A stretch of 64,000 bases of DNA from Muribaculaceae bacterium (GTDB taxonomy: Bacteria; Bacteroidota; Bacteroidia; Bacteroidales; Muribaculaceae): assembly GCA_017555085.1 (NCBI GenBank), contig JAFZHD010000039.1, positions 1 through 64,000 of the forward strand, given 5' to 3'. Both the position numbers and the translations under genes were made by a program. The number at the start of each line of letters is the position of its first letter. The stretch's first letter is position 1. The notes below the pieces were generated by a model. That model searched no databases and was not told where the DNA came from. It saw only the letters and a program-made list of their open reading frames with translations. This document shows, piece by piece, positions 49,064 to 50,619 of this stretch.

Positions 49064-49990
49064 TTAAATTGCGATTTGAGTGCTTTTGAGTCTGTGCATG
49101 TCTTTGGGAACCGAAGCCTTTATCTCGTCGATAACCATGTTGAGAATGGTGTTGCGAACATAGTTGCGGTTTGTGGCGATGATAAGGTGTCGCGATGGGG
49201 TGGGAATGGCAAACGGTTTGACAAGTTTTTTGTTGCTATCACCCATTTGCATCACGGCAAGTTCGGGAATGAATGTAACGCCTTTGCCGCTCTCAACCAT
49301 ACGCATGAATGTTTCCATGCTGCCGAGGTTGTAGGCGAGTTTGCTTGATTGGGCATTTTTGAGTTGGCAGAATTTCACTATTTGGTCGCGGAAACAGTGA
49401 CCCTCGTCGAGCAACCACAATTCTTGATTGAACAGGTCAGAGGTCTTGACTGTGGCTTTTTCGTGCAAGGGGTTGGTTTCGGCCACATAGGCATAAAACT
49501 GCTCGTAGAAAAGGCTGTGGCATGAGTATTCCGACAAGCCGTCAAGGTCGGCAAGAATGCCGGCATCGATTTCGCCTGAGAGCAAAGCCGCTTTGATTTC
49601 TGAAGTCTTCATATCTCTCACTCTGATGTCGAGTTGAGGATATTTGTTCATGAGTTGCGGCAAGAAGCGTGGTAACAAATATGGGGCGATGGTGGGGAGA
49701 ATGCCCACAATGAATTGTCCGGTTATTGTTTGTTTTTCTTCGGCAACCAAATCTTTGATTTTTTGAGCCTGAACCAAAACAACGCGTGCTTGTTCTATAA
49801 TAAGTCGTCCGGCAGCGGTGGGAACAATAGGCGATTTTGAACGCTCAAATATGCGCACTTCAAGTTCATCTTCAAGTTTCTGAATCATGGCGCTCAAAGT
49901 GGGTTGAGTGACGAGGCATTGCTCGGCCGCTTTTGTGAAACTGCCCAATGATTCGACTGCTGTGATGTATTCTAACTGTTGTAAAGTCAT
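49064..49990 (-). CDS. oxyR: Hydrogen peroxide-sensing LysR-type regulator OxyR
   Basis: A 308-residue LysR-type activator. The winged helix-turn-helix is at 1-60 (MTLQQLEYITAVESLGSFTK shows the family start) and the sensing domain is at about 90-300. The peroxide-reactive cysteines are C199 and C208 in GHCFRDQIVKFC, the same positions as in E. coli OxyR, which supports true OxyR function. The gene is divergent from dps. The intergenic tandem site at 50017-50052 is the probable operator for both genes. LOG follows 17 bases downstream. Confidence 0.95.
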   Translation of the reverse strand: MTLQQLEYITAVESLGSFTKAAEQCLVTQPTLSAMIQKLEDELEVRIFERSKSPIVPTAAGRLIIEQARVVLVQAQKIKDLVAEEKQTITGQFIVGILPTIAPYLLPRFLPQLMNKYPQLDIRVRDMKTSEIKAALLSGEIDAGILADLDGLSEYSCHSLFYEQFYAYVAETNPLHEKATVKTSDLFNQELWLLDEGHCFRDQIVKFCQLKNAQSSKLAYNLGSMETFMRMVESGKGVTFIPELAVMQMGDSNKKLVKPFAIPTPSRHLIIATNRNYVRNTILNMVIDEIKASVPKDMHRLKSTQIAI

Positions 49991-50016
49991 GGTAGCAAGT
50001 ATGTTAGATATGCTTA

Positions 50017-50052
50017 ATAGATTTTGTCTATGTAAAGATAGGAATTATCTGT
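50017..50052. promoter_or_regulatory. Predicted OxyR operator between oxyR and dps
   Basis: Two tandem units fit ATAG-N7-CTAT: ATAG at 50017-50020 with CTAT at 50028-50031 (exact), and ATAG at 50038-50041 with CTGT at 50049-50052 (one mismatch). The units repeat every 21 bases, two helical turns, close to the E. coli arrangement of 22. The site ends at the -33 box of dps. Confidence 0.7.
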
Positions 50053-50083
50053 TTGACAAGCAAGCATTCTGCCATTAACTTTG
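50052..50083 (+). promoter_or_regulatory. dps promoter
   Basis: TTTG at 50052-50055, 20 bases, TAACTTTG at 50076-50083. It abuts the OxyR site, as expected for an activated promoter. Confidence 0.75.
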
Positions 50084-50130
50084 CATCAAAAAGAAAAAAC
50101 AACGATAATAACTTAAAAACAAATAGAAAT

Positions 50131-50619
50131 ATGAAAACTTTGAATTTCCTCCACCTCGATGAAAAAATGGCACAAAATGTAGTAGCATCATTGCAACAAC
50201 TCCTTGCCGATTATCAAGTTCACTACACCAACCTCCGCGACTTCCACTGGAATGTCAAGGGTCACGGCTTCTTTGTTCTCCACGAAAAGTTTGAAAGTCT
50301 CTATGACGACGCTGCTGCCAAAATCGACGAAATCGCCGAACGCATCCTCACTCTTGGCGGCACTCCCGAAAACCGTTTCAGCGAGTATCTCAAAATTGCG
50401 AAAATCAAAGAAACAGCCGGTGTAAAATGTGGCCATGATGCAGTTGACCATGTGCTTGACGCTTACGGTTACCTCATCGGCGAAGAACGTCGCCTCATCA
50501 AGTTGGCCGAAGAAGCCGGCGATGCTGTGACAGTCGACATGATGACAGGTTACATTGCTGAGCAAGAAAAAATGGTGTGGATGCTTGTGGCTTACAGCAC
50601 TCCCGCCTGCCAAAAATAA
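50131..50619 (+). CDS. dps: Dps/ferritin-like DNA-binding protein from starved cells
   Basis: A 162-residue ferritin-like protein that oxidises Fe(II) with peroxide and stores iron in a dodecamer, protecting DNA. The ferroxidase residues are visible in DFHWNVKGHGFFVLHEKFESLYDD (H and E/D residues near 33-56, shown in parts: DFHWNVKGHGFF, FESLYDDAAAKIDEIAER). I use the ATG at 50131 because the upstream frame runs through the promoter and operator. The short N-terminus has only a modest basic charge. OxyR control is predicted from the adjacent operator. Confidence 0.95.
   Translation: MKTLNFLHLDEKMAQNVVASLQQLLADYQVHYTNLRDFHWNVKGHGFFVLHEKFESLYDDAAAKIDEIAERILTLGGTPENRFSEYLKIAKIKETAGVKCGHDAVDHVLDAYGYLIGEERRLIKLAEEAGDAVTVDMMTGYIAEQEKMVWMLVAYSTPACQK

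Follow-up and report, generated by a model that had tools for sequence, protein, structure and literature searches.

Within a 64,000-nucleotide stretch of a Muribaculaceae bacterium contig (the window, meaning the whole of the DNA analyzed here), genes for an OxyR-type regulator and a Dps-like protein diverge from a 140-bp intergenic region (49991-50130), in which two ATAG-type repeat units stand in tandem. This raises the question of whether these units constitute an OxyR operator and, if so, which of the two genes it serves. We propose, with a probability of about 85%, that they form a shared bidirectional operator, from which OxyR would activate dps and at the same time cover the oxyR promoter in an autorepressive fashion.

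In Bacteroides and Prevotella, dps has already been placed under OxyR control. In Prevotella intermedia induction of dps and ahpCF requires OxyR and is abolished by its loss (PMC7999485), and in Bacteroides fragilis OxyR governs dps, ahpCF, katB and tpx (PMC6158253); in the genome studied here dps and ahpC are likewise preceded by predicted OxyR operators. In P. gingivalis dps is OxyR-dependent, yet peroxide does not induce it (PMC6231650); lineages may therefore differ in the signal to which dps responds. A study of a B. fragilis oxidative-stress locus has been published (Gene 2003, as listed in PMC12632263), and our literature search, under the phrases tried, found no paper on the oxyR-dps intergenic region itself.

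Anatomy of the oxyR-dps locus

The regulator has the HTH and substrate domains of the LysR type. Its cysteines at positions 199 and 208, in its own numbering, correspond to the redox pair C199 and C208 of OxyR, and further cysteines occur at 25 and 157. Its top NCBIfam match is the OxyR model, with a score under the E. coli-type cut-off of that model, and the nearest solved structures are the OxyR regulatory domains 3ho7, 3uki and 3t22, with which the GHCFRDQ..FC segment is aligned. The divergently encoded ferritin-like protein scores under the cut-offs of the NCBIfam DpsA and Dps models.

Table 1. Features of the oxyR-dps locus, in positions of the window; conserved columns refer to the alignment of 31 non-redundant loci
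Feature	Position	Strand	Description
oxyR	49064..49990	-	308-aa LysR-type peroxide regulator; Pfam HTH_1 and LysR_substrate
Predicted OxyR unit 1, ATAG-N7-CTAT	50017..50031	+	ATAG 50017-50020, CTAT 50028-50031; contains T-N11-A; columns 1-5 and 11-15 conserved
Spacer GTAAAG, 6 bp	50032..50037	+	GCAAAG in most relatives
Position of oxyR -7 box within operator	50033..50040	-	TATCTTTA here; TATCTTTG in most relatives
Predicted OxyR unit 2, ATAG-N7-CTGT	50038..50052	+	ATAG 50038-50041, CTGT 50049-50052; period 21; columns 22-25 and 32-36 conserved
dps -33 box TTTG	50052..50055	+	columns 36-39 conserved
dps -7 box TAACTTTG	50076..50083	+	20 bp after TTTG; columns 60-67 conserved
dps	50131..50619	+	162-aa ferritin-like DNA-protection protein; Pfam Ferritin 1.8e-28; ATG at 50131

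Direct reading of the intergenic region confirmed the two units with a period of 21 that a sequence-only reading of this DNA had described between the dps gene and an oxyR gene encoding C199 and C208 (Table 1). That reading had the operator abutting the dps -33 box, named here, like the -7 box, after the Bacteroides promoter consensus TTTG / TAnnTTTG (PMC7366714). The two are indeed adjacent, but the last T of CTGT is also the first T of TTTG, so that the operator overlaps this -35-equivalent of the promoter to be activated by one base. The tandem scores 15/16 in the 140-bp region; in 3000 shuffles with dinucleotide composition preserved and spacers of 4-10 permitted, no tandem exceeded 13/16.

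Conservation and spacing of the tandem

The OxyR relatives examined came both from named genomes and from samples of the genus and the order, and in many of them, with OxyR identities from 100% down to 39%, a divergent dps adjoins oxyR. The tandem scores at least 13/16 at spacer 6 in 44 of the 48 distinct Bacteroidales oxyR/dps intergenic regions, and a spacer of 6 is the best choice in 43 of the 48 and tied for best in the other five. Across 31 non-redundant loci conservation in the intergenic region is strongest over the 36-bp site together with TTTGACA; past TTTGACA the information content is low over a gap of variable length, about 17 bp, and rises once more at the -7 box, with 22-23 bp separating the operator end from the dps -7 box in 30 of these 31 loci. 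These comparisons indicate that the tandem between oxyR and dps is a real element conserved across gut Bacteroidales, and they strongly support the earlier prediction that it is placed for the activation of dps by OxyR. In loci from other Bacteroidota (L201-L227) the tandem beside oxyR is mostly weak or absent, with a dps-like match in only one of them, and we accordingly restrict the claim to Bacteroidales.

The motif had also been described as E. coli-like. This is true of the single units, the tandem in the window agreeing with the E. coli type at 15/16 positions, but not of their arrangement: the spacer is 6 bp and the period 21 bp in Bacteroidales, as opposed to 7 and 22 bp in E. coli. 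By the same counting, the best tandems of E. coli K-12 have a spacer of 7 at oxyRS (14/16), ahpC (13/16) and grxA (13/16), and the published OxyR consensus, as quoted in PMC10580950, has a 7-nt spacer. Simple consensus counting found no clear tandem at E. coli dps or katG, and the comparison with E. coli thus rests on three promoters and the published consensus.

At the E. coli oxyR-oxyS operator OxyR activates the outward gene and represses oxyR. The Bacteroidales locus resembles that operator in having tandem ATAG-N7-CTAT-type units, here with predicted OxyR binding, beside a divergent oxyR promoter; it differs in its outward gene, which is dps rather than the small RNA oxyS, and in its Bacteroidota -33/-7 promoter type as against -35/-10 in E. 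coli. Two turns of B-DNA correspond to 21 bp, and the one-base difference in spacing raises the question of how the OxyR tetramer is seated on DNA in Bacteroidales as compared with E. coli. The Bacteroidales sites would be overlooked if a search assumed the 7-bp spacer of E. coli.

Candidate targets elsewhere in the genome

The genome search that the sequence-only reading had recommended did recover further tandems. Only two sites in the 2.34-Mb genome match the full tandem with zero mismatches, the dps and rubredoxin promoters, and the ahpC promoter is among the few sites with one mismatch. Two-mismatch matches are largely noise (control pattern 4 vs 16) and were not counted as targets, with the exception of one at a PepSY-like gene. 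A pattern derived from the comparative consensus finds the ahpC and rubredoxin sites and, with one mismatch, the PepSY-like site; the dps site, which departs from this narrower pattern at two positions, is absent from its matches.

Among 39 distinct regions preceding ahpC, 35 have a spacer-6 tandem that scores at least 13. The operator end lies 32-34 bp from the -7 box at nearly all ahpC genes, versus 22-23 bp at dps and rubredoxin, which places the ahpC operator one helical turn further out and fits the expectation for a face-dependent activator. The ensuing Bacteroidales OxyR motif, ATAG-N7-CTAT-N6-ATAR-N7-CNRT, which is situated either at the -33 box or one helical turn ahead of that box, is precise and testable and permits regulon prediction in uncultured species of this large group of gut anaerobes.

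The perfect rubredoxin tandem (contig C41 of this genome, 42195-42230; L128) precedes the gene for a 54-aa rubredoxin, shows the same -33/-7 layout as dps, and is kept in most congeners with few exceptions. The PepSY-like gene (contig C21, 2532-3005) is preceded by a weaker 6-bp-spaced tandem (C21, 3095-3130; L135, L228), which stands about 34 bp ahead of a -7 box, that is, at the ahpC-type distance, and whose units are kept in a sister species (L229) though the flanks differ. This makes the PepSY-like gene a possible further OxyR target, as a candidate only. Both it and rubredoxin would be candidate additions to the OxyR targets given for B. fragilis in PMC6158253, among which rubredoxin does not appear.

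In several congeners and in Bacteroides, ahpC lies just 3' of oxyR. In the genome studied here it is found on a separate contig from oxyR with its operator retained. Species of the genus thus seem to differ by a rearrangement of the oxyR/ahpC locus.

The oxyR side of the operator

The operator had been read as acting on the dps side only, an assignment that stands for dps but appears incomplete in light of the spacer sequence. The spacer is GCAAAG in 18 of the 31 non-redundant loci and ACAAAG in four more, and GCAAAG followed by the ATA of unit 2 gives, on the reverse strand, TATCTTTGC, a perfect -7 box directed at oxyR. A perfect TAnnTTTG is found at this position in 23 of the 31 non-redundant dps loci, against about 0.5% expected from base composition, and in none of about 43 ahpC and rubredoxin sites; in almost all loci the embedded box is located at a normal promoter distance, about 27-66 bp ahead of the oxyR start. 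As the spacer of most relatives holds an oxyR -7 box, both genes are most likely served by the operator. The box reads TATCTTTA, one base off TAnnTTTG, in the window and in a sister with 95% identity, and this makes the embedded-box claim weaker for this species than for its relatives; a -33 box for oxyR is likewise not seen in the window, nor in conserved form across the 31 non-redundant loci.

In certain species of the genus (L009, L011, L013 and L014) the operator units are kept, but the embedded oxyR -7 box has been lost, as has the TTTG of the dps -33 box; their oxyR promoter must lie elsewhere.

The most serious competitor of a shared operator is one that serves dps only, in which GCAAAG is kept by a preference of OxyR or of DNA bending and the oxyR promoter is situated elsewhere. 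The want of a conserved oxyR -33 box is in keeping with it, as are the congeners that keep the units without the embedded -7 box; however, the ahpC and rubredoxin spacers bear no relation to GCAAAG and in many cases are rich in G/C, so the hexamer is not demanded by OxyR, and neither the skewed occurrence of the box (0 of about 43 vs 23 of 31) nor its normal promoter distance from oxyR is as expected of a purely dps-directed element. We regard this explanation as unlikely. Much less probable still is that a different LysR-type regulator binds the site and that its adjacency to oxyR is incidental. The idea draws on the T-N11-A box that ATAG-N7-CTAT forms, boxes of this kind being common among LysR-type regulators. 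Against it, the site recurs at the peroxide-defence genes ahpC, rubredoxin and dps, it stays beside oxyR when the opposite gene changes, and in relatives the expression of dps and ahpCF is lost when oxyR is mutated (PMC7999485; PMC6158253).

Short and AT-rich as they are, ATAG and CTAT might be thought to have come together by accident in AT-rich promoter DNA. The probability of this is negligible, given that none of the 3000 shuffles attained the observed score and that 48 distinct loci conserve the site down to an OxyR identity of 39%; a chance origin of the tandem is refuted by the comparative data.

For the shared operator, the following mechanism can be envisaged. An OxyR tetramer, composed of two dimers, would sit on the two 15-bp units, two helical turns apart, and peroxide or oxygen would oxidize the C199-C208 pair. 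The downstream dimer on unit 2 would then lie against RNA polymerase at the -33 box, which the unit overlaps, resulting in dps activation, and the same tetramer would hide the oxyR -7 region, by which OxyR might cap its own synthesis. We infer that OxyR binds here, that its redox switch operates in this organism, and that oxyR is autorepressed. We further lean, with less assurance than for the shared operator itself, toward a Bacteroidales-specific operator geometry (21 bp, not 22) that functions as a bidirectional switch holding the oxyR -7 box, opposite which varied peroxide-defence genes have been placed. This kind of switch is familiar, well supported and ordinary; the lineage-wide spacing difference and the probable second, oxyR-side function in most relatives set it apart, and its geometry makes it modestly interesting.

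The gene opposite oxyR varies by lineage, being dps, Fe-superoxide dismutase, rubrerythrin, AhpC-type peroxiredoxin or ferritin, and the OxyR-type tandem stays (L050, L063, L073, L077, L079, L119, L122, L124, L125). Unlike the locus in the window, the Prevotella-type loci examined have no dps in this place; superoxide dismutase, ahpC or rubrerythrin stands opposite oxyR, and a greater distance separates the operator from the oxyR -7 box. Among distant Bacteroidales, the operator with its embedded box recurs between oxyR and a peroxiredoxin gene (L122, L124, L125) or a ferritin gene (L119), and a weaker form of the composite occurs opposite thioredoxin (L110).
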